Source: Mycobacterium pseudokansasii (GTDB lineage: Bacteria; Actinomycetota; Actinomycetes; Mycobacteriales; Mycobacteriaceae). From it: a stretch of 64,000 bases of DNA. The stretch covers positions 3,100,001 through 3,164,000 of the forward strand of contig NZ_UPHU01000001.1 in NCBI RefSeq assembly GCF_900566075.1, given 5' to 3'. This document shows positions 1 through 15,771 of this stretch, in pieces; position 1 is the stretch's first letter; every line of letters begins with the position of its first letter. The notes beneath the pieces were generated by a model. The model made no database searches. It was not told the origin of the DNA and saw nothing but the letters and a program-made list of their open reading frames with translations. The position numbers and the translations under genes were made by a program.

Positions 1-1039
1 GGTGGGAGCCGAGGCACCGGTGCGGGCCGCCGCCGAAAGCGCGGTGCCGGTTCGGGTTGCGGTTGAAGTCCACCAGGTCGGGATCGGGGAACTCCGCCGG
101 GTCGGTGTTGGCCGCGCCGAGCAACGGGCTGACCCGTTCGCCCTTGCTGATCGGGCAGCCCCCCACTTCGACGTCTTGCATGGCCACCCGGGCGACCCCG
201 GGAACCGGAGTCTCCCAGCGCAACAGCTCCTCGACCGCATGCGGCAGGATGTCGGGCTGCCCGATGAGTTGACAACGATGCTCGGGGTGTCGGGCCAGGT
301 AGACGAAGAAGCAGTCGAGCGAGTCGGTGACCGTGTCCAGGCCCGCGATCAGGAAAAGGAAGCAGATGTCGAGCAGTTCCTCGCGGGATAGCCGTTGGCC
401 GGCAACCTGCCCTTTGAACGTGGCCGCGATCATCGCGGACAGCACGTCGTCGCGCGGGTTGGCGATGTGGTCGTCGATAGCGCGGTCGAAGTATTCGTAG
501 ATCTGTTGCGCTACGGCCGCCGAAGCGTCGTGGCGGTCGTCGTAGCCGGTGGAACCCGCGGGGCGGATCACGCCGTCCTTCCACTCCAGGAATTTGTCGA
601 GGTCTTCCAGGGGAAGGCCCAGCAGCTGCAGGAAGACGGTGCACGGCAGCGGCACCGCGAACTCGGCATGAAAGTCGCATTCACCCCGGCCGGCGAACCG
701 GTCGATCATCTCGTTCACCAGCGCGGTGACGTGGGGTTCACGCCGAGCCATCTCCCGGGGCGTGAACAGCGGATCGAGGATACGGCGGTACTTGGCGTGT
801 TCGGGCGGGTCGATTTGCAGCGGGATCAGTGGCCGCAGGTTGCCGAGATCGACGGCATCCATGTTGGAGGAGAACAGGTCGGTGCGTTTGAGCGCCATCT
901 CGATGTCGGCGAGCCGGCTCAGAACCACCGCCTGCGGCGCCCGGAACACCGGAGTCGACTCGCGCAGTGCCTTGTACATGGGTTGTGGTTCGGCGATGCC
1001 GGTAACCGCCTGGTCGACATACCCCTCGGTTTCTGTCAT
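1..1039 (-). CDS. Cytochrome P450 (3' end cut by window edge)
   Basis: Heme-thiolate monooxygenase, cut at the left edge after about 346 residues (a full bacterial P450 is about 400). Read on the minus strand from ATG at 1039 it gives MTETEGYVDQAV and then DPPEHAKYRRILDPLF (C-helix region), an I-helix with AGLDTVTD, the K-helix ExxR in VEELLRWE, and the heme-binding loop [12 protein letters not shown] just before the edge. The catalytic Cys is therefore present and only the last 40-50 residues are missing. It is a soluble class I P450 that needs a ferredoxin and reductase, neither of which is seen nearby. The promoter lies between 1040 and 1141 and contains the inverted repeat at 1108-1123. 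It heads a group of catabolic genes, so hydroxylation of the growth substrate is the likely role; this is inference. Confidence 0.9.
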   Translation of the reverse strand, partial: MTETEGYVDQAVTGIAEPQPMYKALRESTPVFRAPQAVVLSRLADIEMALKRTDLFSSNMDAVDLGNLRPLIPLQIDPPEHAKYRRILDPLFTPREMARREPHVTALVNEMIDRFAGRGECDFHAEFAVPLPCTVFLQLLGLPLEDLDKFLEWKDGVIRPAGSTGYDDRHDASAAVAQQIYEYFDRAIDDHIANPRDDVLSAMIAATFKGQVAGQRLSREELLDICFLFLIAGLDTVTDSLDCFFVYLARHPEHRCQLIGQPDILPHAVEELLRWETPVPGVARVAMQDVEVGGCPISKGERVSPLLGAANTDPAEFPDPDLVDFNRNPNRHRAFGGGPHRCLGSH

Positions 1040-1107
1040 GCAGATAGCGTGGCACCGGCGCCGGGAGCGGGGCAATGCCTGCCGACCCTTTATATTGCAA
1101 AAATACG

Positions 1108-1124
1108 TAACTTACCGATGTTAG
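1108..1124. promoter_or_regulatory. Candidate operator upstream of the P450 gene
   Basis: Inverted repeat TAAC-N8-GTTA (1108-1123), about 70 bp upstream of the P450 start codon in an AT-richer stretch. The 9-mer CGATGTTAG at its right end (1116-1124) recurs inverted as CTAACATCG at 2001-2009, five bases before the tetR start codon. The shared word suggests that the TetR protein encoded at 2015 controls both promoters. Confidence 0.4.
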
Positions 1125-1141
1125 GTTCGGCGCTGCCGTGC

Positions 1142-1618
1142 TCACCCGGAAGCCGGTTCGTGTGACTGGCCGCCGTGGCGTTTGCGTGTCAGTGACGTGG
1201 CGCTGCGCACCGCGCCGCGCACCGTGTAAGCGGCCGCCACCACCGACAGCACGATCAGCAGGATGAACGTCGGCAGCCAGTTGCTGCGGCTGTGGTTGAC
1301 TTCCCACCAGATGATCGTGAACAGCAGCGCGCACAGCAGCAGCACGATGTCGCGCCAGTTGCCCTGGTAGGACATTGCGGCTTTACGCAGCGCGCGACTC
1401 CGGTCGGCGGCGTCCACCAGATCATCGATGCGTTCGTTGATCGTGCGTTCCAGATCGGCGCGTTGCGGGGCGTCGGCGGGGAGCCGGTCGAGCAGGTCCA
1501 TGTCCTGCTTGAGCTGGCCGCGAAAGTCGGCGCCCTTGAATTGCCCGGCCGCAACGGCGAGCATGACACCGCCGAAGACGGGCGCACTGCCCAACGCAAG
1601 CTCTCGCAGACCCGACAC
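1142..1618 (-). CDS. Conserved small membrane protein, function unknown
   Basis: About 158 residues. The N-terminal half is soluble and charged (GADFRGQLKQDMDLLDRL, then NERIDDLVDAADRSR). It is followed by two hydrophobic segments around residues 91-106 (DIVLLLCALLFTIIWW) and 116-132 (LPTFILLIVLSVVAA), and a basic tail (LTRKRH). I took GTG at 1618 as the start because a clean GGAGGA lies six bases upstream; ATG at 1624 is in frame but abuts that site. The open frame continues far upstream, but only as a GC-bias artefact. No enzymatic motif is visible. It sits convergent with nothing and between the P450 and tetR genes, so a link to the catabolic cluster is only positional. Confidence 0.6.
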   Translation of the reverse strand: MSGLRELALGSAPVFGGVMLAVAAGQFKGADFRGQLKQDMDLLDRLPADAPQRADLERTINERIDDLVDAADRSRALRKAAMSYQGNWRDIVLLLCALLFTIIWWEVNHSRSNWLPTFILLIVLSVVAAAYTVRGAVRSATSLTRKRHGGQSHEPASG

Positions 1619-2014
1619 CTGCATTCCTCCTTCGGGCACTGACCGCCAGCTGCGCATTGCCGGGCCAGAACGGAGGCGGCAACCGCGGCACTCTCGGCCG
1701 GTCGAGAGCCGTTTACGTGATCCGAGCAGGACTATAGGCGCTGAGCGGTCAGTTCGCGCTCCCGGGTTGTGGCCGGTAACCGGGGCCCGGCATCGACCGT
1801 GGCGTCGACGACGGACGTCGCGAATCCCGGGGCTCAGCCCACCTCCCGGCAGCCTGGCACCTGAGAGCCATCGAAGGCCAAATCGCCTCAACGGCAAGGT
1901 GTTTGAAATCCCGCGGTGCCCAAAACCGATGGCCGCAGCGCGCGTCGCGCCGGCAAGAATTCGCTGGCGTGCGGTGCTAGCCGCGCGATGAGCGCAGCCA
2001 CTAACATCGCATGA
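1619..2014. other. Intergenic region, small membrane protein / tetR
   Basis: About 390 bases without a convincing gene. It contains the inverted repeat CTCTCG-N6-CGAGAG (1691-1708), which could form a hairpin. The half-operator CTAACATCG lies at 2001-2009, immediately before the tetR start. Promoters for both divergent genes must lie here, but I cannot place -10/-35 boxes with confidence. Confidence 0.4.
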
Positions 2015-2653
2015 ATGGCTGAAGCGGGCGTAGCGGGGCGGCGTGCCAACAAGCGGGGCCTGGCGACGCGGGAGAGCATGCTCGAGGCCGCGATACGGTC
2101 GCTGGCCTCCGGAGACCCCGCAGCCGCGTCGGCCAATCGCATCGCCAAAGACAGCGGCGCTACCTGGGGCGCGGTCAAGTACCAATTCGGCGATATCGAC
2201 GGGTTCTGGGCCGCAGTGCTGCACCGCACCGCGCAGCGACGCGGCGAGTTGCCGTCGAATGCCATCTCCGGCGGTCCGCTGCACGAGCGGGTCTCGGTCA
2301 TCATCGACACCTTGTACGAGGGGCTGACCTCCAGCGATTCCCGGGCGATCGAGACGCTTCGCCGAGCACTGCCCAACAACCGCGCCGAACTTGAGCGGCA
2401 CTATCCCCGAACCGCTGCCGAGCTGGCGTCCTGGCACCAAAGCTGGGCGATGGCCTGCCAGAAGGCATTCGCGGATCTGGATGTCGATCCTGACCGGGTA
2501 CGCGAGGTAGCCACGTTCATCCCGGGAGCCATGCGCGGCATCACCTCCGAAAGACAGCTGGGCACCTACTCCGACCTCGACCAAGCCCGCCGAGGGTTGA
2601 CCAACGCCATCGTCGCTTACCTGGGAAATGCTGGGGCACAATGCTTTTCCTGA
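2015..2653 (+). CDS. TetR family transcriptional regulator
   Basis: A 212-residue regulator with an N-terminal helix-turn-helix typical of TetR (residues about 15-60: TRESMLEAAIRSLASGD, then ANRIAKDSGATWGAVKYQFGD, where the second helix pair ends in the usual Y-F recognition segment). The C-terminal ligand domain is all helical and unremarkable. No good Shine-Dalgarno precedes ATG 2015, so the mRNA may be leaderless or nearly so. The motif CTAACATCG ends five bases before the start and also occurs in the P450 promoter, consistent with autoregulation and control of the oxidative genes. The ligand is unknown; a CoA ester or substrate of the neighbouring pathway would be usual for this family in mycobacteria. 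Confidence 0.85.
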   Translation: MAEAGVAGRRANKRGLATRESMLEAAIRSLASGDPAAASANRIAKDSGATWGAVKYQFGDIDGFWAAVLHRTAQRRGELPSNAISGGPLHERVSVIIDTLYEGLTSSDSRAIETLRRALPNNRAELERHYPRTAAELASWHQSWAMACQKAFADLDVDPDRVREVATFIPGAMRGITSERQLGTYSDLDQARRGLTNAIVAYLGNAGAQCFS

Positions 2654-2757
2654 GTGCGACAACCTTGCCGGTATTTTTTCGCGGTTGGCGATCCGTATGG
2701 ACCGTCGGCATGGCCGGTGCGCCAGGGTATCTGGACATCGGGCCGGTGTAAGAGCTT

Positions 2758-3303
2758 GTGGCCGAGCAGGATCGCCGCCGCTGGGACGAGCGCTACACCG
2801 ACCTGGGAGCGCCGGCGCCCGGCGCCGTCGGACCGCCCGGCGCCTTCGTGGGTCACACGGACGTATTCCCTACCGCGGGAAAGGCGTTCGATCTGGCCTG
2901 CGGTCCGGGACTGGGCGCGGTCTGGTTAGCACACCGAGGGTTAGAGGTGTGGGGAGTGGACGTCTCTCCGGTAGCGATTGGCCAGGCACGGGATTTGGCC
3001 GCGCATTGCGGGGTCGCCGATCGCTGTCGATTCGATGTTGTCGACCTGGATGCGGGTTTACCGCCGGGGCCACCCGTCGACGTGATCGTCTGCCATAAGT
3101 TCCTGGATCCCCGCCTGGACCGGCCGATCGTCGCACGCTTGGCACCGGGCGGGTTGCTGGCCATCGCCGTGCTCAGTGAGGTCGGCGCGGCTGCGGGTCC
3201 CTTCCGCGCCGGGCGGGGCCAGCTGCGGGCGGCATTTGCCGGACTGGACGTGATTGCCGCTGGGGAAGGCCAGGGGCAGGCCTGGCTGTTGGCACGGGCC
3301 TAA
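2758..3303 (+). CDS. Class I SAM-dependent methyltransferase
   Basis: A 181-residue protein. GTG at 2758 is the first possible start because an in-frame TAA precedes it by two codons. Motif I is FDLACGPGLGAVWLA (about residues 39-53) and motif II is VWGVDVSPVAIGQA, with the acidic residue that binds the SAM ribose; DVVDLDAGLP and DVIVCHKFLDP follow. The protein is short, with only a Rossmann-like core and no obvious substrate cap. It follows tetR in the same direction after about 100 bases. The substrate is unknown; small-molecule or metalloid detoxification types share this architecture. Confidence 0.75.
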   Translation: MAEQDRRRWDERYTDLGAPAPGAVGPPGAFVGHTDVFPTAGKAFDLACGPGLGAVWLAHRGLEVWGVDVSPVAIGQARDLAAHCGVADRCRFDVVDLDAGLPPGPPVDVIVCHKFLDPRLDRPIVARLAPGGLLAIAVLSEVGAAAGPFRAGRGQLRAAFAGLDVIAAGEGQGQAWLLARA

Positions 3304-3555
3304 CCGTCAGGCTCGGTGGGCCGCAACTGCGCAATCTCTTGTGCTGCAGTGATATCAGCGCCCTAGTCGCAACTTTCGGGTGCCAGGTGGTGCCGCGGCG
3401 ACGGCCTCGGCAAACCCGGTCCGGATGTCCTCGGCGGCAACGGCGCCGGCGGCGGCCGGGGAACATGGCGGTGCTTTTCGCCGAATCCACCGCCAACGAT
3501 CGAAAACTATGCGAACCTGAACCGATATTGCGCGGAGCAACATCAGGGGGCAGCC

Positions 3556-4719
<1,164 letters not shown>

Positions 4720-4759: not shown

Positions 4760-5593
4760 ATGGAACGGCGCGTCCTCGAAGCGATCATCTACGAACGCGA
4801 ACCGCCGATCGCGCGGATCATCCTGAATCGGGTCGACAAGGCCAACACCAAGGATGCGGTCCTGGTCACCGAAGTCGATGCCTGCCTGCATGAGGCCGAC
4901 CGCGATAGAGAGATCAAAGTCGTCATTCTGAAGGCCAACGGCAAGGGCTTCTGCGGCGGGCACGTGGCGCGTTGGGATCCGGACGAAAACCCCTACCCGG
5001 ATTTCGGCAATACCTTCGAGGACCTGTACAAGGGCACCGCCGACCTGTTCCTGTGGCCCACCCTGTACCTGTGGGAGTTCCCCAAGCCGACGATCTCCCA
5101 GATCCACGGCTACTGCATGGGCGGCGGCATCTATCTGGGCCTGTTGACCGACTTCTGCGTCGCCTCCGAGGACGCGTATTTCCAGATGCCGCTTGCCCAA
5201 AGCCTGGGAGAGCCCGGCGGGCACACCATGATCGAGCCGTGGTTGCTGATGAACTGGCACCGCACCATGGACTGGCTGCTGCTGGCGCCGACCCTGTCGG
5301 CGCAACAGGCCCTCGACTGGGGTCTGCTCAACCGGGTGGTGCCCCGCGAGGACCTGGAAGCCACCGTCGAGGAGATGGCGCGCAAGATCGCGCAGATCCC
5401 GCTCACGACGCTGATGGCGGTGAAGAACAACGTGAAGCGGGCCTGGGAACTGATGGGAATGCGGGTGCACCTGCAGGTCAGCCATATTCTGACCAACATG
5501 GTCGGCGCCGCATCCGATGTTCAGGCGCGTCGGGCCGAGCTGATGCAGTCCGGAATGAAGCCGCGCGATTTCGTCGCCGGCGACGACTCCTAG
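4760..5593 (+). CDS. Enoyl-CoA hydratase/isomerase (crotonase) family, atypical
   Basis: A 277-residue crotonase-fold protein. The CoA and oxyanion loops are clear (KANGKGFCGGH, residues 58-68; HGYCMGGG, 116-123). Both catalytic glutamates of canonical hydratases (rat Glu144 and Glu164) are replaced: by alignment to GGGCEL and FGQPE the positions are Tyr125 and Leu145. A C-terminal KNNVKRAWELMGMRVH is shared with the paralogue at 10260-11132. It may be a C-C bond hydrolase, isomerase or thioesterase-like member rather than a simple hydratase. It forms a likely two-gene operon with the acyl-CoA dehydrogenase upstream. Confidence 0.85.
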   Translation: MERRVLEAIIYEREPPIARIILNRVDKANTKDAVLVTEVDACLHEADRDREIKVVILKANGKGFCGGHVARWDPDENPYPDFGNTFEDLYKGTADLFLWPTLYLWEFPKPTISQIHGYCMGGGIYLGLLTDFCVASEDAYFQMPLAQSLGEPGGHTMIEPWLLMNWHRTMDWLLLAPTLSAQQALDWGLLNRVVPREDLEATVEEMARKIAQIPLTTLMAVKNNVKRAWELMGMRVHLQVSHILTNMVGAASDVQARRAELMQSGMKPRDFVAGDDS

Positions 5594-5656: not shown

Positions 5657-5662
5657 AGCCAA

Positions 5663-7333
5663 CTAGCGGGCGGCGGCGTGCCGGGCGGCAACATAGCCGA
5701 ACACCATCGAGTTCGCAATGCTCGCTCCGGCCCCAGGATACGTTCGTCCCATCACCGTCGCGGTGGTGTTGCCGGTGGCGTAAAGGCCCTCGATCACCCG
5801 GTCGTGCTCGTCGAGAACCTGGGCGTGCTCGTTGGTGATCACACCTCCGCAGGTGCCGACGTCCGCCGGAAACACTCTGGTTGCGTAGTAGGGCGCGCGG
5901 TTGAGCGGGCCGAGGGCGGCGTTGGGCCGATATCCGGGATCGCCCAGGCAGGTGTTGTAGGCCGACTGACCGCGGCCGAAGTCGGGATCAAGGCCCTGGG
6001 CCGCAAAGTGGTTGAACCGCTGAATCGTTCGCGTCAGCGCATCGACGGGCACACCGATCTGGCGGGCCAGGTCGCCGATGGTGTCACCGCGCTTGACGGC
6101 GCCGCTGTCGATGAATTCGGGCGGCAGGCGTCGGTTGAGCGGGTTGGTGCCCGTGACGTACCGGCGGATGTAGCCGTGGTCGAAGATCATCCAGCACGGC
6201 ACCGCCTTGGCGGCGTACATCGCCTTGCCCACTTCGACGTAGGAGTTCGACTCGTTGCAGAACCGCCGGCCGGCCAAGTCGACGTAGACGGCTCCCGGCC
6301 GTTGTCGTCCCGAGCCCAGCGACGCCGCCGCCGCACCGCCGTTGGCAATGAACACCGAAGGGAGCCACCACGCTTCGTCCAGCAGGCCGGTTTGCGCGCC
6401 CAACCGCACCGCGGCGCGCAGCACCTCTCCGGTGTCGCCGGCATTGGCGATCGACCACTTACCGTCGTTGGGCTGATCGCCACTGTATTGCCGTCGCATC
6501 TCGGCGTTGTGGCCAAAGCCGCCGGCCGCCAACAGGACTCCCTTGCGCGCCTCGATACCGACCGGAATACCGTCGCGGATGACGCGCGCCCCGACCACCC
6601 GGCCGTCCTCGACGATCAGGTCCTCCATGGCGGCGTTGGTCCACAACGTGGGCCGGCCATCGCTGAGGTCAAGCAGCACCTTGAGCATCTGGCCGATCAA
6701 TGATGCTCCGTTGGTGAGGATTTGGCGGCCGCGGACCCGGGCGGCGCGGGTGCGCAGAAACACTCGGGCTGCTACGGCGAAGGCACGTGTCGACCGGTTG
6801 AAGTACTGCAGCGAGCGCAACTCGTTGGTCAGCACCACGTAGCCGTAATTCTTGGCCAGCGGCGGCTGCAGCTTGTCGCCCCAGGCCCCCAGGACAGCAG
6901 CGTCGAACGGAACTCCCTCGACGGCACGGCCGGCGGCGTTGCCGCCCTGATGATTCGGGTAGTAGTCGCTCCAGCCGGCGCAACGGATCAGCCGAACACC
7001 TTTGTGGACAAGAAAATCGAGCATCTCGTAGCCCGCTGACAGGAACGTCTCCCGGCGGGCAGCCGAAGACGCCGCGCCGATGTCGCCGACCACGTCGGCA
7101 AGGTAGGCCAGACCGTCTTCGTAGGTGTCGGCGATGCCGTCGGCCCGCATCAGCGGGTTGTTCGGCAGCCAGACGATACCGCCGGAAAGACCCGTCGAGC
7201 CGCCGACCAGGTGCTGCTTCTCGACGATGAGCGGCTCGAGCCCGCGGTCGAGTGCGGCCAGCCCCGCCACCATGCCGCCCCCGCCGCTTCCTGCGATGAG
7301 CAGGTCGACCGAGCGGTCCCACCGCGCGCTCAT
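5663..7333 (-). CDS. FAD-dependent dehydrogenase, 3-ketosteroid-delta1-dehydrogenase/fumarate reductase family
   Basis: A 556-residue flavoprotein. The N-terminal dinucleotide motif is LLIAGSGGGGMVAGLAAL (residues 11-28), followed by an acidic ribose-binding end (LIVEK) and GGSTGLSGG. The C-terminal FAD segment GLYATGNTTATVMG, then YPGAGASIANSMVFGYVAA, is characteristic of the KstD/FRD flavoprotein group. It probably dehydrogenates a cyclic ketone or enoyl substrate. Its start codon overlaps the stop codon of the Rieske gene (ATGA), so the two are translationally coupled. It is the last gene of the eight-gene minus-strand operon that starts at 14295. The exact substrate cannot be inferred. 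Confidence 0.85.
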   Translation of the reverse strand: MSARWDRSVDLLIAGSGGGGMVAGLAALDRGLEPLIVEKQHLVGGSTGLSGGIVWLPNNPLMRADGIADTYEDGLAYLADVVGDIGAASSAARRETFLSAGYEMLDFLVHKGVRLIRCAGWSDYYPNHQGGNAAGRAVEGVPFDAAVLGAWGDKLQPPLAKNYGYVVLTNELRSLQYFNRSTRAFAVAARVFLRTRAARVRGRQILTNGASLIGQMLKVLLDLSDGRPTLWTNAAMEDLIVEDGRVVGARVIRDGIPVGIEARKGVLLAAGGFGHNAEMRRQYSGDQPNDGKWSIANAGDTGEVLRAAVRLGAQTGLLDEAWWLPSVFIANGGAAAASLGSGRQRPGAVYVDLAGRRFCNESNSYVEVGKAMYAAKAVPCWMIFDHGYIRRYVTGTNPLNRRLPPEFIDSGAVKRGDTIGDLARQIGVPVDALTRTIQRFNHFAAQGLDPDFGRGQSAYNTCLGDPGYRPNAALGPLNRAPYYATRVFPADVGTCGGVITNEHAQVLDEHDRVIEGLYATGNTTATVMGRTYPGAGASIANSMVFGYVAARHAAAR

Positions 7334-8706
7334 TGTGCCGCCGAAACGCCCGCAGCGAGGCCCAAATCGGCGATCGGCACGTCGATGGTGGTGTTGGTCT
7401 GCGCAATCGCGGGCAGCAGCGTGTCGTAGGGCAACCCGGCCAGGAATCCGTCGATGACCCGCTCGAAGTTCGAGATCAGCCCTTCGATCTGGTTCGACAA
7501 CCGCATGTACTCGAAACCCTTGGAGCGCAGCCCTTTCTGCTGCCGCGGCAGGTTGGAGAAGTCCTGCGCGGGAATTGGCGGCCAGCTCGGGTCATCGGGC
7601 GCCATCGGTTCCGGTGGGGTGGGCTTGCCGGTGACCTGATCGGGCGGAATCCGGATGAGCGACCAGATCTCGAACAACGTCTCCTCCGGCCCCAGCGGAC
7701 GAACCCGGTACGAGGAAGCGCTGCTGTATTGCGGCAACAGGAAGTAATGCGGAAAGCCGAACCCGATCGCGTCGACAATGCCGCGGCGCGCCAACTCGTT
7801 GAGGTCGGGAACATCGCATCCGCGGGCGCGATGCCAGGCGACGACGGCGTCGTTGAGCGTGGCGCGCCAGGCAGTCATCGCCTCGGCGGGATCGTCCGGC
7901 AACTCGACGTTCTGCAGGCCTTCGGCGATGCGGATGTCGTTGGCGTGGGTCATGCCGCCCATGCCCGCGCCGAGGGTCCGCATAAAATACAGGCTGCTGG
8001 CGATGACCGGGCGTGTGCCCGGCGCGGACGTACCGTTGCCCTGCGCCGACGGCAGCAGCTGCGGATGGGTCTGCGGCACGTGATAGCCCTCCATGAACGC
8101 CGCCGTGGCCAGCTTCCAATTCACCGGAAGCCGGCACGACAGCCACCACTCGGTGCGCAGCGACTCGACCTTCCAGGCGTCGTAGATCGAGGCGAAAGGC
8201 TCCAGGCAGGCGCGCAACGCGGGTGCGGCGTCGTCGAGGTTGATCCACGCGCACCCGCCCCACAGTTCGCACCGGACCGACACCAGCTGAAGATCCTGCG
8301 GGCACAGGTTGTGCTCGCCGAACACCTCCGGCCGGGCCACATAGGTGTTGCGTCCGTCGATGGCCCAGCACCAGCCGTGGAAGGGGCACACGAAGGTGCG
8401 CCGGAATCCGTTGCCCTCCACCAGCTTTACCCCGCGGTGCCGGCAGGCGTTGTGATAGGCCCGCACGTTGTCGGCATCCACCCGCACCACGATGATCGAC
8501 TCGTCGAGGATCTGGTACTCCACGAAGTCGCCCGGCTGGGGGATCTCTTCGAGCCGGCAGGCCATCTGCCACACGCGTGGCCAGAACTTCTCGGCCTCCA
8601 GCGCGTAGAACTCGGCGTCGTAGTAGCGCTGCTTGGGGATCCGGTCGGCGGTCTGGACCGCCCATGGCACCGGCAGCGGTGTCCAGTTCACCTCAATGTT
8701 CACCAT
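7330..8706 (-). CDS. Rieske non-heme iron oxygenase, alpha subunit
   Basis: A 458-residue ring-hydroxylating oxygenase. The [2Fe-2S] Rieske ligands are C88-x-H90 (NACRHRG) and C107-x2-H110 (CPFHGW). The mononuclear iron site is suggested by EGYHVPQTH (His209 and His214), with the acidic ligand further downstream. ATG 8706 was chosen because GAGGGA lies eight bases upstream; the open frame extends about 43 codons further without a ribosome site. No beta subunit, ferredoxin or reductase gene is adjacent, so electron donors must come from elsewhere, as for KshA-type monooxygenases. It lies 14 bases downstream of the acyl-CoA ligase and overlaps the flavoprotein gene. Confidence 0.9.
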   Translation of the reverse strand: MVNIEVNWTPLPVPWAVQTADRIPKQRYYDAEFYALEAEKFWPRVWQMACRLEEIPQPGDFVEYQILDESIIVVRVDADNVRAYHNACRHRGVKLVEGNGFRRTFVCPFHGWCWAIDGRNTYVARPEVFGEHNLCPQDLQLVSVRCELWGGCAWINLDDAAPALRACLEPFASIYDAWKVESLRTEWWLSCRLPVNWKLATAAFMEGYHVPQTHPQLLPSAQGNGTSAPGTRPVIASSLYFMRTLGAGMGGMTHANDIRIAEGLQNVELPDDPAEAMTAWRATLNDAVVAWHRARGCDVPDLNELARRGIVDAIGFGFPHYFLLPQYSSASSYRVRPLGPEETLFEIWSLIRIPPDQVTGKPTPPEPMAPDDPSWPPIPAQDFSNLPRQQKGLRSKGFEYMRLSNQIEGLISNFERVIDGFLAGLPYDTLLPAIAQTNTTIDVPIADLGLAAGVSAAQ

Positions 8707-8720
8707 CTGGCTTCCCTCGC

Positions 8721-10238
8721 TCACATGATTCGCGACGTGCGGCCTTGCCAATACCGTTCGCGGATGCGCCTTTTGTACAGCTTTCCGTTGGGGTCGCGGG
8801 GCAGCTTCGCGGTGAAGTCGACGCTGCGCGGGCACTTGTAGCCGGCCAGGTGCGTTCGGCAGTAGTCGATCAGCTCGGCCTCCAGCTCGGGTCCCGCCCC
8901 AACCTCGTCCACCGGCTGCACCACGGCCTTGACCTCCTCGCCGTATTCATCGTTGGGAACGCCGAACACCGCGGCGTCGACGAGCTTGGGGTGCATCACC
9001 AACAGGTTCTCCGCCTCCTGCGGATAGATGTTGACCCCGCCGGAGACAACCATGAACGTCGAGCGGTCGGTGAGATAGAGGTATCCGTCCTCGTCCACAT
9101 AACCCATGTCGCCCAGCGAGCGCCAACCGCGGTCGTTGCGCACCGACGCGGTCTTGACCGGATCTTTGAAGTACTCGAACTGCGGGCCGCCCTCGAAAAA
9201 GAGTTCACCGCAGTGCCCGACGGGAAGCTCGGTTCCGTCGTCGCCGAGGACATGGACCGGGCTCAATGGTTTGCCGACCGAACCCGGGTGGGCGAGCCAC
9301 TCCCGCGGGCCGATCGTGGTTCCGGCGAATCCCTCTGTGCCCCCATAGTATTCGTGGATGATCGGCCCGAACCAGGCCATCATTCGGTGCTTGACGTCGA
9401 CCGGGCAGGGCGCGGCCGCGTGCAGCACGCACTGCAGGCTGGAAACGTCATACGCGCGCCGCACCTCCTCGGGCAGCTTGAGCATGCGCACGAACATCGT
9501 CGGCACGAACTGGGCGTGGGTGACCCGATGGGTCTCGATCAGCCGCAGTACCGTCTCGGCGTCGAACTTGCCCATGAGGACGACGGTGGCCCCGACGCGG
9601 TGGACCGCCATGGCATAGTTCACCCCGGCGGCGTGATAGAGCGGCGCGGGGGACAGGTACACGCTGGCCGGGCGCAGGGCGTAGCGCCGGGTGAGCGCCA
9701 TCTCCAGAACCGCCTGAGCCCAGGAACCGTTGGCGGTGGGCAGGCCGCGGCGCACCGCCTTGGGCCGGCCGGTGGTGCCCGACGAATACAGCATCTCGCT
9801 GCCGTCGGACGCCGGGAAATCGTCGCCGGCGCCGGCCAGCGCGTCGAGGTAGGAATGCCAGCCGGGTATCGACCCGCCGACGCAGACCGGGACGCGGCTG
9901 CTGTCGGCCAGCTTGCCCGCCAGGTCGGCAAAAGCCGAGTCGAGGAACACCGCCCGGGCCTCGCAATCGTCGACGATGTAGGCCACCTCGTCCAAGGTGA
10001 GGTGGGTGTTCACCGGCGTGTAGTAGAGCCCGGAAAGCTGGCAGCCCCAGGTGATTTCGAGAAACTCCGGGCGATTCGACAGCAGCAGGGCCACACCGTC
10101 GCCGCGCCTGAACCCCGCTTCGTGCAGCAGCGCGGCGACGCGGCGGCTGCGGGCATGCAACTCCGCATACGAGATGCCCGCCCCGTCACCCACGACAAGT
10201 GCCGGTGCTGCGCTACTGGCGTGGTCGGTCAGGTTCAT
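8721..10238 (-). CDS. Acyl-CoA synthetase (AMP-forming, FadD type)
   Basis: A 505-residue adenylate-forming ligase that activates a carboxylic acid to its CoA thioester. The P-loop-like A3 motif is YSSGTTGRPK (151-160). Also visible are YYGGTEG (A5), GDMGYVDEDGYLYLTDR (A7/A8 hinge), GGVNIYPQE, and the C-terminal catalytic lysine in PNGKLYKRR (about residue 486). It is shorter at the N terminus than long-chain FadDs and resembles the FadD4-like group. It lies 21 bases downstream of the crotonase gene in the operon. In the pathway it would prime the substrate acid before desaturation and cleavage. Confidence 0.9.
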   Translation of the reverse strand: MNLTDHASSAAPALVVGDGAGISYAELHARSRRVAALLHEAGFRRGDGVALLLSNRPEFLEITWGCQLSGLYYTPVNTHLTLDEVAYIVDDCEARAVFLDSAFADLAGKLADSSRVPVCVGGSIPGWHSYLDALAGAGDDFPASDGSEMLYSSGTTGRPKAVRRGLPTANGSWAQAVLEMALTRRYALRPASVYLSPAPLYHAAGVNYAMAVHRVGATVVLMGKFDAETVLRLIETHRVTHAQFVPTMFVRMLKLPEEVRRAYDVSSLQCVLHAAAPCPVDVKHRMMAWFGPIIHEYYGGTEGFAGTTIGPREWLAHPGSVGKPLSPVHVLGDDGTELPVGHCGELFFEGGPQFEYFKDPVKTASVRNDRGWRSLGDMGYVDEDGYLYLTDRSTFMVVSGGVNIYPQEAENLLVMHPKLVDAAVFGVPNDEYGEEVKAVVQPVDEVGAGPELEAELIDYCRTHLAGYKCPRSVDFTAKLPRDPNGKLYKRRIRERYWQGRTSRIM

Positions 10239-10259
10239 CGGTGTCGGTTCGCCACGACG

Positions 10260-11132
10260 TCATGTGGCCGGAGCGCCGTCGGTCGACTCCGCCGCGGTCG
10301 CCTGGCGGCGCGCCATCTCGGCGGGCTTGATCTTGCCCTTCAGCACCTGCTGCACCAGAGCCTGTACGTCGGCGCTGATCGACGCCAGCGCCACCAGGTC
10401 ATTGGAGCTTTGCCAGTGCACCCGCATGCCCATCAGCTCCCAGGCGCGTTTGATGTTGGCCTTGGTCGCCAACAGCGTCGTCAGCGGAGCCTGCGCGATG
10501 TGCCGCGCGATCGCCTCCACCCGGGCGTCGAGTTGATCGCGGGGGACCACCTCGTTGACCAGACCCACCGCCAACGCCTTCTGCGCGTCGATGACTTCGT
10601 TCAGGTACAGGTAATACGATGCCCGCCGCCAATTCATGAACACCCAGGGTTCGATCGAGCATTCGCCCGACGGCATGCCGAAGCCCTGCAGCGGTGGGTA
10701 CTGAAAGTAGGCGTCCTCGGCGGCGATGACGATATCGGTGGTCAACCCGTAGTGCGTGCCCCCGCCCACGCAGTAGCCGTGGACCTGGGCAATCGTCGGT
10801 TTGGCGAACTCCCACAAATTGAGCACCGGCTTGACGAACAAGTCGGACTGCGGCTTCCACGGCGTGCCCATCACCTTTGCACCCTCGACGAACGCCGGAT
10901 AGTCGACCGCGTTGTTGCCGATCGCGTGTCCCGAGCAGAAACCCTTGCCGTTGGCCTTGAGGATCAGCACCTTGATGTCGTAATCGCGGTCCGCGTCGGC
11001 CAGCGCGGCGTCGACCTCCTCGGCAAGTTTCTGGTCCTGGGCGTTGGCCTTCTCGGGCCAGTTCAGCGTGACCCGCGCTATCGCGCCGGTCTTCTCGTAG
11101 ATGATGCGTTCGCGAGTTTCCTTGAGGTCCAT
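10260..11132 (-). CDS. Enoyl-CoA hydratase/isomerase (crotonase) family, atypical paralogue
   Basis: A 290-residue crotonase from ATG 11132, with GGAGAAGG just upstream; a longer open frame upstream is not supported. It has KANGKGFCSGH (59-69) and HGYCVGGG (118-125), the oxyanion hole loops. As in the paralogue at 4760-5593, the two hydratase glutamates are absent: the aligned positions are His127 and Pro147. The tail RRQATAAESTDGAPAT is low complexity. It sits between the lipoyl-domain gene and the ligase gene, 13 bases from the former. The two paralogues share WELMGMRVH and the GFC(S/G)GH loop, so they are related and may form a heteromer or act in consecutive steps. Confidence 0.85.
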   Translation of the reverse strand: MDLKETRERIIYEKTGAIARVTLNWPEKANAQDQKLAEEVDAALADADRDYDIKVLILKANGKGFCSGHAIGNNAVDYPAFVEGAKVMGTPWKPQSDLFVKPVLNLWEFAKPTIAQVHGYCVGGGTHYGLTTDIVIAAEDAYFQYPPLQGFGMPSGECSIEPWVFMNWRRASYYLYLNEVIDAQKALAVGLVNEVVPRDQLDARVEAIARHIAQAPLTTLLATKANIKRAWELMGMRVHWQSSNDLVALASISADVQALVQQVLKGKIKPAEMARRQATAAESTDGAPAT

Positions 11133-11145
11133 GCCTTCTCCTGGG

Positions 11146-11382
11146 TTATGAGGTGATGACGCCGATCTGAACGCCGATGTCGTAGGTCCCACCGGCGGCC
11201 GCGGTCCACTGCACGGTGCCGGACGCGCCGGCCTCGACTTCCTGTTCGGCCTTCTCGGTTGCGACGACGTAGATCGGGGTGCCCTCCTCGACATGCTGGC
11301 CGCTTTCGACGAGCAGTTCGACGAGTTCGGCCTCGGACACCGCGACCGACACGCGCGGGATGCGAATGACGAAGTCAGCCAT
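11146..11382 (-). CDS. Stand-alone lipoyl (biotinyl/lipoyl attachment) domain protein
   Basis: A 78-residue protein consisting only of a lipoyl-type domain. The attachment lysine is in VVATEKAEQEVEA (Lys44), the beta-turn expected for E2 swinging arms. There is no E3-binding or catalytic acyltransferase domain. Its start overlaps the end of the E1-beta gene by 8 bases, so it is translated with E1. It would accept the acyl or hydroxyalkyl group made by the TPP-dependent E1 pair and pass it to CoA, using an acyltransferase encoded elsewhere or perhaps one of the adjacent CoA enzymes. Confidence 0.85.
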   Translation of the reverse strand: MADFVIRIPRVSVAVSEAELVELLVESGQHVEEGTPIYVVATEKAEQEVEAGASGTVQWTAAAGGTYDIGVQIGVITS

Positions 11383-12373
11383 GCACTCCCGTCCTGTTCA
11401 GGGTCCGCTGCGCGGCCGTGACGATTCGTGCCGGCGAGGGATACACCTGCGCCTCCAGCGCGGCGGCGGCCGGGTTGGGGACGAACCGCGCACCGACCCG
11501 CTCCACGGGCGCCGCGAGTTCGCCGAACAGTTGCGATTGCAGGATCGCGGCGATCTCCGCCCCGGGCCCGCCGAATTGCACCGCGTCGTGCACCACGACG
11601 GCTCGTCTTGTGCGACGGACGGATTCGACGACGGTCTCGACATCGAGCGGCACCAGGGTGCGCAGGTCGACGACGTCGGCGCTGACCCCCTGTTCCTGCA
11701 GGGTGGCCGCGGCCGCGAGCGCGTCGTGCACACTGCGCCCGTAGCCGATCAGGCTCACGTCGGTGCCCGTCCGCTTGATATCGGCCTGACCCAACGGGAT
11801 CGAGAAACCCGGGTCGACGGGGACGGGTCCGCGTTTGCTTTGCAGGCGGATGGTTTCGACGAACAGGCACGGGTCCTCGTCGAAGATCGCGGCGGTCAGC
11901 AGGCCCTTGCCATCCCGCGGGGTGGACGGCACGATCACCTTCATCCCGGGGATGTGCATGAACCACGCCTCCAACGTCTGCGAATGCGTGGCGCCGGTGC
12001 CCAATCCGGCGTATACCTGGGTCCGTACGGTGATCGGCGCCGTGGTGCGTCCGCCCGTCATGAAGCGCAGCTTGGCGGCATGGTTGATCAACTGGTCGGC
12101 GGCGATGCCGATGAAATCCATGATCATGATCTCGGCTACCGGCAGCATCCCGTCTACCGCCGCGCCGATCGCCGCACCCACGATCGCGGCTTCCGAGATC
12201 GGGGCGTCCACGACCCGGTCGTGGCCGTACTTTGTCGACAGGCCAGCGGTGGGCCCGGACGCGCCGGGATCGGCGATGTCCTCGCCGAGCAGGAACACCC
12301 GGTCGTCGGCCTGTAGCGCCTGATCGAGTGCGAGGTTGAGCGCCTCGCGCATCGTCATCTCTTGTTCGGTCAT
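11375..12373 (-). CDS. 2-oxoacid/acetoin dehydrogenase E1 component, beta subunit
   Basis: A 332-residue pyrimidine-binding and transketolase C-terminal protein. The start ATG 12373 (MTEQEMTMREALN) lies 10 bases after the stop of E1-alpha. Typical E1-beta segments are VFLLGEDIADPG, VDAPISEAAIVGAAIGAA, MDFIGIAADQLINHAAK and the C-terminal VVDLRTLVPLDVETVVESV. GEDIA contains the Glu that protonates N1' of thiamine. With E1-alpha it forms a TPP-dependent decarboxylating or C-C cleaving heterotetramer. The closest functional families are branched-chain 2-oxoacid, pyruvate and acetoin dehydrogenases, and sequence reading alone cannot separate these. Confidence 0.88.
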   Translation of the reverse strand: MTEQEMTMREALNLALDQALQADDRVFLLGEDIADPGASGPTAGLSTKYGHDRVVDAPISEAAIVGAAIGAAVDGMLPVAEIMIMDFIGIAADQLINHAAKLRFMTGGRTTAPITVRTQVYAGLGTGATHSQTLEAWFMHIPGMKVIVPSTPRDGKGLLTAAIFDEDPCLFVETIRLQSKRGPVPVDPGFSIPLGQADIKRTGTDVSLIGYGRSVHDALAAAATLQEQGVSADVVDLRTLVPLDVETVVESVRRTRRAVVVHDAVQFGGPGAEIAAILQSQLFGELAAPVERVGARFVPNPAAAALEAQVYPSPARIVTAAQRTLNRTGVHG

Positions 12374-12383
12374 CTGCCGTGCC

Positions 12384-13370
12384 TCACACCGGAAACCCGA
12401 GCGGCGTTGCGTATACGTCACGTTCGAGTTCGTCGAGGGACGGCGCACCGGCGCTCATGACCGCGCGCAACGCCGAATCCACCTGCAGCAGCGCGTCGTG
12501 GTCGATGCCGCTGAGCTCGTTCTCGCCGTAGATTCCGGTTTCGAGGAGGTGGTTGCGGAACCGCGGCACCGGGTCGGCGGCCATGGCCGCTGCCAGCTCG
12601 TCCTTTGGTATGTAAGGCATCCGGTCACCGAAGTAGTGGCCGCGGAAGCGAAACGTCACGCACTCGATGAAGGTGGGGCCGCCGCCGCCCCGGGCGGCCT
12701 CCACCGCCTTGTCAAGTGCTGACCTCACCGCCAGCGGGTCGTTGCCGTCGACGCGGACGGCCGGCATGCCGTAGCCGGCGGCACGTTCCGCGACATGTTC
12801 AAGCTTCATCGTGGCGGATGTGGGTGTCATCTCCGCGTACCGGTTGTTCTGGCATACGAATACCACGGGCAGGTTCCAGAGCGCGGCCATGTTGGCCGCC
12901 TCGTGGAAGGAGCCGGTGTTGGTGGCGCCGTCGCCGAAGCTGACCACCGTGACGCGATCCAGCCCTTTGCGCTTGCCGGCCAGCGCCAGCCCGACGGCCA
13001 CCGGCGGCCCGGCGCCGACGATGCCGGTCGAAAGCATCACGCCTACGGCCGGATTGGCGATATGCATGGTGCCGCCCTTGCCGCGGCTGGCACCGACGGT
13101 GCGTCCCAGCATCTCCCCGAAGATCTCCTGCAGCGGCACTCCCTTGCCGATCAGATCATGCAGCCCGCGGTAGGTCGTCACCAGCTGATCGTCGGTCCGC
13201 AACACCACACCCATCGCCGCGGCGATGGCTTCCTGGCCGCGCGACGGCCAGTACACGCAGATGAACTCCCCGGTGCTGATGCCCTTGGCCAGCCGGTCAT
13301 CGGCCGTTTTCATCAGCACCATCAGCTCATAGAGGCGGCGGCGGAAGTCGCCGAAACGGTCGAGGGTCAC
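12384..13370 (-). CDS. 2-oxoacid/acetoin dehydrogenase E1 component, alpha subunit
   Basis: A 328-residue TPP-binding subunit. GTG 13370 (TLDRFGDFRRRLYELM) is chosen because TTGGAG lies seven bases upstream; upstream codons in the open frame have no family similarity. The TPP/Mg motif is VSFGDGATNTGSFHEAANMAALW followed by CQNN. Before it come YRGLHDLIGKG and SRGKGGTMH, the phosphorylation-loop region of the E1-alpha family. It is the second gene of the operon after the SDR. An E1 alpha/beta pair with only a lipoyl domain and no E2 catalytic or E3 gene is unusual. Confidence 0.88.
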   Translation of the reverse strand: MTLDRFGDFRRRLYELMVLMKTADDRLAKGISTGEFICVYWPSRGQEAIAAAMGVVLRTDDQLVTTYRGLHDLIGKGVPLQEIFGEMLGRTVGASRGKGGTMHIANPAVGVMLSTGIVGAGPPVAVGLALAGKRKGLDRVTVVSFGDGATNTGSFHEAANMAALWNLPVVFVCQNNRYAEMTPTSATMKLEHVAERAAGYGMPAVRVDGNDPLAVRSALDKAVEAARGGGGPTFIECVTFRFRGHYFGDRMPYIPKDELAAAMAADPVPRFRNHLLETGIYGENELSGIDHDALLQVDSALRAVMSAGAPSLDELERDVYATPLGFPV

Positions 13371-13419
13371 GGTGTGTCTCCAAGTCCCATGTGCCGCAGG
13401 TGAATTGATCTCATCGCGA

Positions 13420-14295
13420 TCACCCGCCGGACCACGGCTTGACCTTGAGGAAGCCGCCGCCGTCCACCCGCAGCTGCTGGCCGGTGATATAGCGGGCCGC
13501 ATCGGAGGCGAGAAACAACACGGCCTCGCTGATGTCCTCGGGTTCGACATAGGGAATCGGCATCGCTTGCACCACCGGGAAAACCGGTTCGGCGTCCTCG
13601 CGAGTGGGGTTGGGCAGGTCCGGCCGGAAGGCCCGGTACATGGGAGCGCTGTGCAACATGTCGGTGTTGACGTTGGTCGGGTGTACCGCGTTCATCCGGA
13701 TGGAGAACGGAGCCAGCGTCCGGGCGAAGTCGTTGACGTAGTGCGCCGCAGCGATTTTCGCGAAGGCATAGCCGGCTCCGCCGGGGCCGCCGTCGATGCC
13801 GGTGGTGTTCATCGACGACATGAATGCCGCATTGGAACCGATGACGATGATCGACGCGCCGGCGCGTAGGTGTTTGAGGCTGGCATGCACCAGGTTGAGC
13901 ACCCCCACCAGGTCCACGTCCACGGCGTCGGCGAAGGCCTGCGGCGGCAGGCCGGCGGTGAGCGGGCAGATGCCGGCGTTGGCGACCACGATGTCGAGAC
14001 GGCCCAATTCGGACACCGCGTTGTCGATCGCCGTCGACAAGGCCGCGCGGTCGCGGACGTCGGCGATCGCGGTGATGACCCGCCGGCCTTCTTTTTCCAC
14101 CAGACGCGCCGTCTCGTCCAGGTCCTCCGGCCGGGCCAGCGGATACTCGTTCGTCTCGATATCGGCGCACAAGTCCACCGCGAGGATGTCGGCGCCCTCT
14201 GCGGCAAGCAACCGTGCATGCGAGCGGCCCTGCCCGCGCGCCGCGCCACTGATCACCGCCACCTTGCCGGCTACCCGGCCCGCTATCCGGCTCAT
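13420..14295 (-). CDS. SDR oxidoreductase, probably mycofactocin-coupled
   Basis: A 291-residue short-chain dehydrogenase. The Gly motif is SGAARGQGRSHA (residues 16-27). The GQGRSH form is typical of the mycofactocin-dependent SDR subfamily, in which NAD(H) stays bound and electrons go to the peptide redox cofactor mycofactocin. NAG is at 106-108, catalytic Ser154 in IGSN, and Tyr176-x3-Lys180 in GYAFAK. The subfamily insertion after beta-2 (ADIETNEYPLARPEDLDET) is also present. It is the first gene of the minus-strand operon, with its promoter in the 14296-14550 region, and would oxidise an alcohol formed by the oxygenases. Confidence 0.85.
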   Translation of the reverse strand: MSRIAGRVAGKVAVISGAARGQGRSHARLLAAEGADILAVDLCADIETNEYPLARPEDLDETARLVEKEGRRVITAIADVRDRAALSTAIDNAVSELGRLDIVVANAGICPLTAGLPPQAFADAVDVDLVGVLNLVHASLKHLRAGASIIVIGSNAAFMSSMNTTGIDGGPGGAGYAFAKIAAAHYVNDFARTLAPFSIRMNAVHPTNVNTDMLHSAPMYRAFRPDLPNPTREDAEPVFPVVQAMPIPYVEPEDISEAVLFLASDAARYITGQQLRVDGGGFLKVKPWSGG

Positions 14296-14494
14296 CGCCG
14301 CCCCTTGTCCGCGTCCCTACACCGACGACCCACATTGGGAGTCAAAGCCTTTCGCTGCCCGCGCGGCGCTGGCACCGAGCACGGCCGGGCTGCGGCAGCG
14401 GCCAACGACGCCGGCGTCGAACCGTTGGTGGTTCCCATCGCATCTCTTCCGAAGAACCGCGCGTGCCTGCAGCCGGGATATCGCCATCCGCTAC

Positions 14495-14518
14495 GCTAGC
14501 TAGAATATCTAAAATAGC
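14495..14518. promoter_or_regulatory. AT-rich palindromic region in the divergent promoter
   Basis: In the 255-base divergent gap between the SDR operon and the CoA transferase, an AT-rich block contains the inverted repeat TAGA-ATA-TCTA (14501-14511), flanked by GCTA (14495) and TAGC (14515). It is a plausible operator and -10 region serving one or both directions. The 33 bases that follow run up to ATG 14551, with GAGGGG as ribosome site. Confidence 0.4.
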
Positions 14519-14550
14519 AAGGAATAGCTGCGGCGGCCGAGGGGATTGCG

Positions 14551-15771
14551 ATGGCAGGGGTACTCAGCGGTGTCCGGGTTGTCGAGTTGGCGTCGTGGAC
14601 CTACGTACCGTCAGCCGGTGCCGTCCTGTCGGATTGGGGCGCCGACGTGATCAAGGTGGAGGGTGTCGCGGCGGGTGATCCCGGCCGGGCATTGGTGGTG
14701 GGTGGTTTCACTCGTGAGGCGGCCCGGGTCGACGCCGACTTCATCCTCGAGTTGGGTAACCGTGGCAAGCGCAGCATCGCGATGGACATCAAATCCGAGA
14801 CCGGCCGTGAGCTGTTCGGCCGCCTGCTGGCCAGTGCCGATGTGTTTCTGACCAATTGGCTGCCCGGCGCCCTCGAGCGCGCCCGGCTGACCGTCGAGGA
14901 GATCCGCTCCTTCAATCCCAAGATCATCATCGCCAGAGGAACGGGGCTGGGCGTGCGCGGCCCGGATCGCGATCGCGGTGGCTTCGATGCCGCCACCTAC
15001 CTGGCGCGCGGTGGGGTGGCCTACACCCTCACCCCGTTCGGCAGCGAGACGCCGGCTGTGCAGGGGCCGGCGTTCGGCGACCTGCAGGGCGGGGCAACGC
15101 TGGCCGGTGGGGTGTGTGCCGCGTTGTTTCACCGCGAACGCACCGGAGAGCCGTGCATCGTCGACTCGTCACTACTGGCTCAGGCGATGTGGGCCATCGC
15201 GCCGTCGATTTCGGCGGCGGACTTCTTCGATATCGACGGCATTCCCGGGGCGCCGCCCGGGTTGGCCATCAATCCGCTGGTGAATCGGTACCAGACCAGG
15301 GACGGCAGGTGGATTCAGCTGGTGTTCCTGCAACCCGACAAATACTGGGCCGGCTTTTGCCGGCGGATGGGACTTGCCGAGCTGGCCGCTGACGAGCGGT
15401 TCGTGCCGTCGCGCAACCTCATTGCCAACGCGGCCGAGGCAACGCAGATCTTCGCCGTTGCCTTCGCCGGCCACGATCTCGCGCATTGGCAGAAGGTTCT
15501 CGAGGACGAACCGGGTGTGTGGGCAGCCCTGGCGACGCCACGGGAGACGCTCAACGATCCTCAGGTCGAACCCAACGGGTACGTGGTGACCAACCGCGAT
15601 GACCACGGCGAGCCGTACCGGATCGTGGCCGCGCCGGTTCAATTCAACGAAATGCCGCCGGGTCCCGCGCGTGCCCCCGAGCATGGCCAGCACACCGAGG
15701 AGATTCTGCTCGAGATCGACGTGGACTGGGACGACATCGCACGGGCCAAGGATCTCAACGCGATCCTGTGA
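14551..15771 (+). CDS. CaiB/BaiF family (type III) CoA transferase
   Basis: A 406-residue family III CoA transferase, which moves CoA between acids through an aspartyl-CoA thioester. N-terminal VRVVELASWTYVPSAG and LSDWGADVIKVE are family hallmarks. The catalytic Asp is most likely Asp177 in GPAFGDLQGGATLAGGV, aligned with Asp169 of formyl-CoA transferase. NRGKRSIAMD and VDSSLLAQAMW are further signatures. It is divergent from the SDR-E1-ligase operon and probably co-regulated, offering an ATP-independent route to the CoA ester or recycling of CoA from a product. Confidence 0.88.
   Translation: MAGVLSGVRVVELASWTYVPSAGAVLSDWGADVIKVEGVAAGDPGRALVVGGFTREAARVDADFILELGNRGKRSIAMDIKSETGRELFGRLLASADVFLTNWLPGALERARLTVEEIRSFNPKIIIARGTGLGVRGPDRDRGGFDAATYLARGGVAYTLTPFGSETPAVQGPAFGDLQGGATLAGGVCAALFHRERTGEPCIVDSSLLAQAMWAIAPSISAADFFDIDGIPGAPPGLAINPLVNRYQTRDGRWIQLVFLQPDKYWAGFCRRMGLAELAADERFVPSRNLIANAAEATQIFAVAFAGHDLAHWQKVLEDEPGVWAALATPRETLNDPQVEPNGYVVTNRDDHGEPYRIVAAPVQFNEMPPGPARAPEHGQHTEEILLEIDVDWDDIARAKDLNAIL

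Follow-up and report, generated by a model that had tools for sequence, protein, structure and literature searches.

A Rieske oxygenase linked to a thiamine diphosphate E1 enzyme and a free lipoyl protein in a putative alicyclic-catabolic operon of Mycobacterium pseudokansasii

Gene content and organization of the operon

We analyzed a 64,000-nucleotide stretch (G000:C1:3100001-3164000; hereafter the window) of the 6.4-Mb genome of Mycobacterium pseudokansasii, which carries an eight-gene operon on its minus strand. The operon encodes, among other proteins, a Rieske oxygenase, the two subunits (E1α and E1β) of a thiamine diphosphate (ThDP)-dependent dehydrogenase and a separate lipoyl-domain protein (LIP). 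It could well serve the catabolism of a bulky alicyclic molecule (terpenoid- or steroid-like), with a ring-cleavage module composed of these proteins at its centre, a reading that we hold with moderate confidence.

The identities of the genes, predicted from open reading frames (ORFs), were checked against Pfam and NCBIfam (Table 1). Both databases confirmed the gene list given in a preliminary description of this DNA. The tight eight-gene operon of that description, with gaps of less than 50 bases and two overlaps, was also found: it spans positions 14295 to 5663 in the order SDR-E1α-E1β-LIP-ECH2-FadD-Rieske-KstD (SDR, short-chain dehydrogenase/reductase), in which neighbouring genes either lie 49, 10, 13, 21 and 14 bases apart or overlap by 8 and 4 bases. 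The ECH1 gene converges on the operon from the left, and the CaiB gene diverges from it at the right. These genes and their operon-like layout are direct observations, as are the conserved module and the retained catalytic residues described below.

Table 1. Genes of the operon and its surroundings (positions are those of the window)
Feature	Position	Strand	Family match
ECH1, crotonase-family protein	4760..5593	+	Pfam ECH_1; 50% identity to ECH2
KstD-like flavoprotein (3-ketosteroid delta-1-dehydrogenase type)	5663..7333	-	NF009478
Rieske non-haem iron oxygenase alpha subunit	7330..8706	-	PF00355 + PF00848
FadD-type acyl-CoA ligase	8721..10238	-	PF00501 + PF13193
ECH2, crotonase-family protein	10260..11132	-	PF00378
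LIP, stand-alone 78-aa lipoyl-domain protein	11146..11382	-	PF00364, 42.9 bits vs cut-off 22.1
E1β, ThDP-dependent dehydrogenase	11375..12373	-	PF02779 + PF02780
E1α, ThDP-dependent dehydrogenase, GTG start	12384..13370	-	PF00676
Mycofactocin-coupled SDR dehydrogenase, first gene of the operon	13420..14295	-	TIGR03971
CaiB/BaiF family III CoA-transferase, divergent from the operon	14551..15771	+	PF02515, 282.9 bits
Acyl-CoA dehydrogenase (ACAD), extension	3556..4719	+	Pfam
Putative TetR-type regulator, extension	2015..2653	+	NCBIfam TetR-type models, weakly and in every case below cut-off
Cytochrome P450, truncated by the window edge, extension	2..1039	-	PF00067

Linkage of the E1α clade to Rieske oxygenases

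E1α was surveyed in 394 genomes of the class, and stretches of up to 20 kb were read around 55 places. The loci were chosen by E1α rank and comprised every one of the 34 places that rank below the mycobacterial orthologs, down to E=7.6e-74 (33 within the clade described below and one outside it); the 21 controls were this one outside-clade place and 20 lower-ranked places, some places being skipped. Three plasmid loci (L105-L107), opened after both E1β and Rieske matches had been seen, are rows of the tree and stand outside the 33/21 count, and one fetched region (L134) was dropped as a mis-placed duplicate without a whole E1α. A Rieske gene was called with our own profile at 250 bits or more, with 80 bits as a looser level; some of the loci used to build the Rieske, KstD and LIP profiles were later counted themselves, a bias towards detection at these loci.

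The E1α tree (73 rows) places the family of the window in a 51-row clade with support of 100/100. A Rieske gene lies within 10 kb of E1α in 43 of these 51 rows, compared with 5 of the 22 rows outside, and the distribution of this label on the tree requires 8 changes, compared with a mean of 21 after shuffling (0/500 shuffles were as low). Among the rank-chosen loci, the proportions within 10 kb are 30/33 in the clade and 4/21 in the controls (Fisher p = 1e-7, relatedness ignored), and within 3 kb they are 27/33 and 0/21. The preliminary description had proposed a search for the same gene set in other actinobacteria, and it is this module of E1 and Rieske genes that recurs there.

Divided by group, a Rieske gene is found within 10 kb in 23/23 of the closest loci, 7/10 loci of a subclade without LIP and 4/21 controls, and within 3 kb in 21/23, 6/10 and 0/21, respectively. 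At the 80-bit level, the values within 10 kb are 23/23, 8/10 and 6/21 (in-clade 31/33), and those within 3 kb are 21/23, 6/10 and 4/21 (in-clade 27/33). All four control cases at 250 bits belong to one genus, with the Rieske gene located 6.3-7.0 kb away; at approximately 0.5 kb from E1α, these four also carry a divergent, weak Rieske relative, whose strand is opposite to that of E1α. At neither level do the controls support a general presence of Rieske genes near E1 loci.

In the fourteen genomes that were checked, the number of Rieske genes per genome (PF00848) is 1-18, which puts the expectation at 0.005-0.05 per 21-kb stretch. In G148, the sole Rieske gene in 3.9 Mb lies less than 1 kb from E1α. 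In all 13 genomes other than that of the window, an independent Pfam search also found a Rieske gene no more than 6 kb away from E1α. One of these genomes (G142) has three E1α loci: this search gave a nearby Rieske gene at one of them, and at the remaining two (contigs C43 and C245) our own profile detected a Rieske gene cut at the contig end.

The other members of the operon show their own patterns. A stand-alone LIP lies within 3 kb of E1β in 19/23 of the closest loci, 0/10 loci of the subclade and 0/21 controls, and a KstD-like protein is encoded in the stretch in 15/23, 1/10 and 0/21, respectively. An E2 core was found within 3 kb in 1/23 of the closest loci, 0/10 of the subclade and 11/21 controls. 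A Rieske gene, and in many cases a KstD-like gene, accompanies the E1-lipoyl unit even in distantly related genera.

Gene presence was also counted in 50 related loci of genome contigs (E<=1e-8). We regard it as highly improbable that the genes are neighbours by chance, or through shared regulation, and do not form one pathway. Some loci do lack individual members and the accessory genes differ, but E1α, E1β and LIP occur in 50/50 loci, ECH2 in 48, FadD in 47, SDR in 46, Rieske in 45, KstD and CaiB in 43 each, and ECH1 in 41. The five loci without the Rieske gene are short or located at a contig end, and several of the misses overall fall on short contigs. Furthermore, E1 and the Rieske oxygenase stay together in other genera at 47-75% E1α identity and 28-53% Rieske identity, while the other neighbours vary.

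Variants of the block, which extend across phyla, include (i) a plasmid block of Streptomyces NBC_00564 (Rieske-ferredoxin-FAD protein-E1α-E1β-LIP), (ii) a plasmid block of Azospirillum B510 (Rieske-E1α-E1β-LIP-ligase-FAD protein), (iii) a plasmid block of Paraburkholderia sprentiae (Rieske-FAD protein-E1α-E1β-LIP-E2 core-ligase-crotonase), in which a separate 275-aa E2 core directly follows LIP, (iv) loci of Paraburkholderia PGU19 and Diaphorobacter HDW4B, in which E1α-E1β-LIP-E2 core lie beside MMPL, DUF1302, DUF1329 and YCF48 genes, and (v) a Rhodococcus plasmid with KstD-E1α-E1β-(VOC)-SDR-Rieske and without LIP. In three loci (L107, L110 and L111), the lipoyl part of E2 is a free protein, and the catalytic core, of approximately 250-275 aa, is encoded by a gene of its own.

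On another Rhodococcus plasmid (L122:11923-17840), a related Rieske gene lies two genes from a single-chain, acetolactate-synthase-type thiamine enzyme, which is followed by an aldehyde dehydrogenase. The best PDB matches of this thiamine enzyme are acetolactate synthase and oxalyl-CoA decarboxylase/2-hydroxyacyl-CoA lyase, with cyclohexane-1,2-dione hydrolase lower in the list. This single case may represent an independent solution to the same chemistry.

The E1αβ pair and the free lipoyl protein

E1α keeps the GDG...NN motif, and its H260 (within RGHY) is nearly invariant in the alignment, as E62 and H131 of E1β are conserved. We assume for these residues the roles, including that of the acylation histidine, that they have in pyruvate dehydrogenase. 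The lipoyl-lysine motif [DE]KxxxE is present in 95 of the 99 LIP family matches. In addition, 14 positions of E1α and 11 of E1β passed the thresholds for clade specificity; the first and last "invariant" positions of the E1 residue alignment are an artefact of the extended query ends. Positions 86-87 of E1α are H-D in all 40 rows of the LIP-containing subclade, compared with G and H in 18/20 controls each, and position 189 is Q in 93%, compared with E in 20/20 controls.

The database names of related proteins vary between acetoin:DCPIP oxidoreductase subunit alpha and pyruvate dehydrogenase, and no acetoin-specific E1 model is among the matches listed. LIP has the N-terminus of the acetoin dehydrogenase E2 as its best NCBIfam match and scores 41.7 bits to PRK14875 (cut-off 307), i.e. 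the operon encodes no full lipoyl-bearing E2 acetyltransferase. The absence of an E2 catalytic gene noted in the preliminary description was borne out: PF00198 (E2 core) has six matches in the genome, none of them within the window. They are located at C1:3738094, 4304592, 4599985 and 3983974, plus two lesser matches, and the two other E1β loci of the genome each lie within 1 kb of a PF00198 match. The same holds for E3: none of 18 ORFs from the first 21 kb of the window gave an E3-type (pyridine nucleotide-disulphide) Pfam match, a search that was not extended to the genome. An E2-like fragment with two in-frame stops (G000:C1:4301646-4302059) lies approximately 2.5 kb from an intact E2 gene.

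It is possible, although in our view rather unlikely, that E1αβ and LIP form an ordinary 2-oxo acid dehydrogenase acting on a late 2-oxo acid after another enzyme has opened the ring, with the Rieske and KstD-like enzymes acting earlier and linked to it only by the shared pathway. The E1 sequences match the pyruvate and branched-chain dehydrogenase families, share their ThDP motifs, acylation histidines and general catalytic residues, and E1β falls only narrowly below the pyruvate dehydrogenase cut-off (310.6 bits compared with 321). E1α, however, is far below its cut-offs for the pyruvate dehydrogenase models TIGR03182/TIGR03181 (267.7 bits compared with 393.85, and 244.3 compared with 411.35). 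The separate clade, its specific positions and the constancy of the Rieske gene within 3 kb (27/33 loci) while other neighbours vary also argue against this explanation, and the rarity of a nearby E2 core in the close relatives (1/23, compared with 11/21 control E1 loci) is a further difference from these complexes.

A close parallel is the acetoin dehydrogenase enzyme system (AcoA/AcoB and a lipoyl E2), whose E1αβ belongs to the same superfamily. According to PMC12247030, acetoin:DCPIP oxidoreductase, the E1 of this system, cleaves acetoin, passes the acyl unit on to lipoamide of the enzyme that follows, and also accepts diketones as donors. The cleavage proposed here would likewise break a C-C bond beside a carbonyl and transfer an acyl group to lipoamide. 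In the window, however, the lipoyl domain is a separate 78-aa protein, neither E2 nor E3 was found in the operon, and the unit is coupled to a Rieske and a KstD-like enzyme, with a substrate predicted to be cyclic and bulky. The same paper describes cyclohexane-1,2-dione hydrolase of Azoarcus, a ThDP enzyme able to cleave a cyclic α-diketone; unlike E1αβ, it belongs to the decarboxylase/acetolactate-synthase-type ThDP family and lacks a lipoyl carrier.

KstD-like flavoprotein, Rieske oxygenase and accessory enzymes

The KstD-like protein scores 859.4 bits with NF009478, above the cut-off of 789. Alignment to 4c3x (with the number offset inferred) showed that the four catalytic residues of KstD1 (Tyr119, Tyr318, Tyr487 and Gly491) all have their counterparts in it, which are conserved in 44, 43, 45 and 45 of 45 relatives, respectively. 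The Rieske protein keeps both metal sites: C88/H90/C107/H110, H209/H214, E206 and D382 are invariant in 18 aligned sequences. A glutamate stands at one place in it that is usually occupied by aspartate in the family. No Rieske beta subunit or reductase gene was found beside the Rieske gene.

A KstD-type flavoprotein with its catalytic residues next to a Rieske oxygenase recalls the KstD and KshA pair of the 9,10-seco steroid route. On one reading, which we consider improbable, the cluster would branch off the classical degradation of cholesterol or bile acids and carry a KstD and a Rieske 9α-hydroxylase for that branch. NCBI names the family whose cut-off the KstD-like protein exceeds 3-ketosteroid-delta-1-dehydrogenase, and 9α-hydroxylation of a Δ1-desaturated steroid by a Rieske enzyme is the classical opening of ring B, as outlined in a review (PMC8399759). 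In contrast, the operon has a ThDP/lipoyl module in place of meta-cleavage, and Pfam and NCBIfam detected no extradiol dioxygenase or KshB-type reductase in the ORFs analyzed from the window's first 25 kb or in 10 ORFs of the left flank, a scan that did not cover the whole genome. Moreover, three KstD paralogs (39-43% identity) are encoded elsewhere in the genome, E1α is carried by 60 of the 198 genomes of the genus (E<=1e-120, 75-100% identity), and the words thiamine and acetoin do not appear in the main text of two papers on bile-salt degradation. The KstD paralogs and the restricted distribution of E1α also led us to reject the cluster as the main cholesterol cluster.

The SDR exceeds the cut-off of TIGR03971 (334.1 bits compared with 300), and the genome encodes the mycofactocin radical-SAM maturase (MftC model, 649.8 compared with 265). 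FadD4 is the best NCBIfam match of FadD, at a score below its cut-off. ECH1 carries the motif GYC[MVI]GGGIYLG in 39/39 orthologs and ECH2 the motif GGGTH in 40/41, one ORF being outside the pattern. We assume that Glu144 and Glu164 are the canonical catalytic glutamates of crotonases. Alignment to 4k29 showed that ECH2 has H and P at these two positions, and ECH1, read against ECH2, has Y and L. Since both usual glutamates are lacking, ECH1 and ECH2 are unlikely to be simple hydratases.

Conserved unit and local extension in mycobacteria

Mycobacterium innocens, M. persicum, M. ostraviense, M. gastri and M. attenuatum are among the named relatives that most resemble the window at this locus (E1α identity of 84-90%), which places the organism in the M. 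kansasii group. Among the 50 related loci, an ACAD ortholog (at least 60% identity) was found in 6 and TetR in 5; some P450 was present in 9, at only 24-31% identity, and most of these stretches end short of the expected P450 place. Longer stretches of 11 mycobacterial genomes were therefore compared for these three genes. P450, TetR and ACAD occur in the order of the window in 4/4 of the closest relatives (93-95%, 88-96% and 97-99% identical, respectively), and in one relative (L004) the P450 is complete (394 aa). No P450 was found within approximately 15 kb of E1α in 6/6 more distant mycobacterial loci (a seventh ends too early), one of which retains TetR and part of ACAD. Because the P450 is kept in 4/4 close and 0/6 distant relatives, the widely conserved unit is about 4760-15771, and positions 1-4719 are a local extension of the close relatives. 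The P450, listed as a cluster member in the preliminary description, holds this place only among the latter.

In M. lepraemurium (L054, from 10001 on), several cluster genes gave only split or partial matches, which suggests decay in this host-restricted species. FadD matches in more than one piece were also obtained in L172 and L180, as was the E1β match in L180; these may be disrupted copies or assembly errors. A second mycobacterial arrangement contains a conserved protein of approximately 102 aa directly upstream of E1α (L025:9669-10007, L038:9681-9989, L047 near 9700-9989, L052:1616-1942). Its L038 copy has no Pfam match, and the operon of the window has no room for such a gene. An expanded mycobacterial cluster (L047) adds a pair of ACADs, one partner of which lacks a Pfam middle-domain match, an arrangement known from steroid catabolism.

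Further along the window, positions 32303-63963 contain family matches to PPE, PE, MalQ, an FtsK-type EccC-like ATPase, a second P450 and EccD, a set that resembles what we take to be an ESX-5 secretion region. The G+C content is 0.598 at positions 24001-28000 and 0.617 at 32001-36000, compared with 0.64-0.69 in the other 14 of 16 stretches. The former of these two regions contains a patatin-like gene as well as two 240-aa ORFs that lie side by side and have no Pfam match.

Proposed pathway

From this set of genes we infer each reaction, the order of the reactions and the class of substrate. The mycofactocin-coupled SDR would oxidize a ring alcohol to a ketone, and the KstD-like flavoprotein would add a double bond adjacent to it, giving a cyclic enone. 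The Rieske oxygenase would then hydroxylate beside the carbonyl, producing an α-hydroxyketone or, via tautomerisation, an α-diketone. E1αβ with ThDP would attack the carbonyl and break the ring C-C bond, in the way that the acetoin dehydrogenase E1 acts on acetoin, and would pass the acyl piece to LIP. From there, the acyl group might reach CoA through an E2 from elsewhere in the genome or through an unrecognised partner, and FadD, CaiB and the two crotonases would process the resulting acids.

The view of the preliminary description, a catabolic cluster for cyclic terpenoids or steroids with an E1/lipoyl module, fits the evidence, including the coupling to Rieske and KstD-like enzymes across genera. 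Its further suggestion of transfer to CoA is not demonstrated, because no E2 is encoded in the operon.

Several observations weigh against a dedicated module of ring cleavage. Neither E2 nor E3 was found in the operon, and an E1-lipoyl pair would fit ordinary 2-oxo acids equally, the residue patterns found here being unable to discriminate between the two. At 80 bits, the controls with a Rieske gene rise to 6/21 within 10 kb and 4/21 within 3 kb, and no Rieske gene is present in the stretches read of Paraburkholderia PGU19 and Diaphorobacter. The lipoyl step is not universal, since the 11-row sister subclade (L123-L132, L109) has the Rieske gene (8/11 rows) and no LIP nearby; perhaps thiamine cleavage proceeds there without a lipoyl acceptor. 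Nor is the desaturation step universal, as a KstD-like protein accompanies only 15/23 close loci and 1/10 genome loci of the subclade.

The KstD-like enzyme and the ACAD pair of L047 suggest a bulky ring ketone as the substrate of the proposed ring cleavage, perhaps a 3-oxo terpenoid. A more specific scheme, which we put forward very tentatively, is an oxygenase-primed "acyloin lyase" route. Starting from a 3-oxo ring, the KstD-like and Rieske enzymes would produce a 2-hydroxy-3-ketone or 2,3-diketone, the dedicated E1 would cut the C2-C3 bond, and the free lipoyl protein would capture the acyl end. Such a route would fit 4,4-dimethyl terpenoids, such as triterpenoid and related acids, in their 3-oxo form, because their ring A is not aromatisable as in the classical steroid route. 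According to a review (PMC4139828), Nocardia converts ursolic acid to ursonic acid and its 1-ene-3-one, and betulonic acid to a 2α-acetoxy-3-ketone; the bacterial products mentioned in another (PMC7728323) include ones with a fragmented ring A. These products, from another genus and given without genes, resemble intermediates of the proposed route. No bacterial gene set for the breakdown of 4,4-dimethyl terpenoids was found in our literature search.

Significance of the module

The component enzymes are individually of known kinds. In agreement with the preliminary description, which knew of no characterised pathway with exactly this set, no description of a module that combines a Rieske oxygenase, E1 and a free lipoyl protein was found in a literature search that covered PMC papers, with few subscription papers and no bioRxiv preprints. 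The finding raises the question of what carries the acyl group to CoA where no E2 accompanies the lipoyl arm. If the proposed reading is true, this would be a widespread, undescribed ring-cleavage module in which oxygenase chemistry feeds straight into thiamine/lipoyl C-C cleavage, so that ring opening would yield an activated acyl thioester. The module would then also serve as a gene marker by which terpenoid-type breakdown could be recognized in mycobacteria, Frankiaceae and plant-associated proteobacteria.

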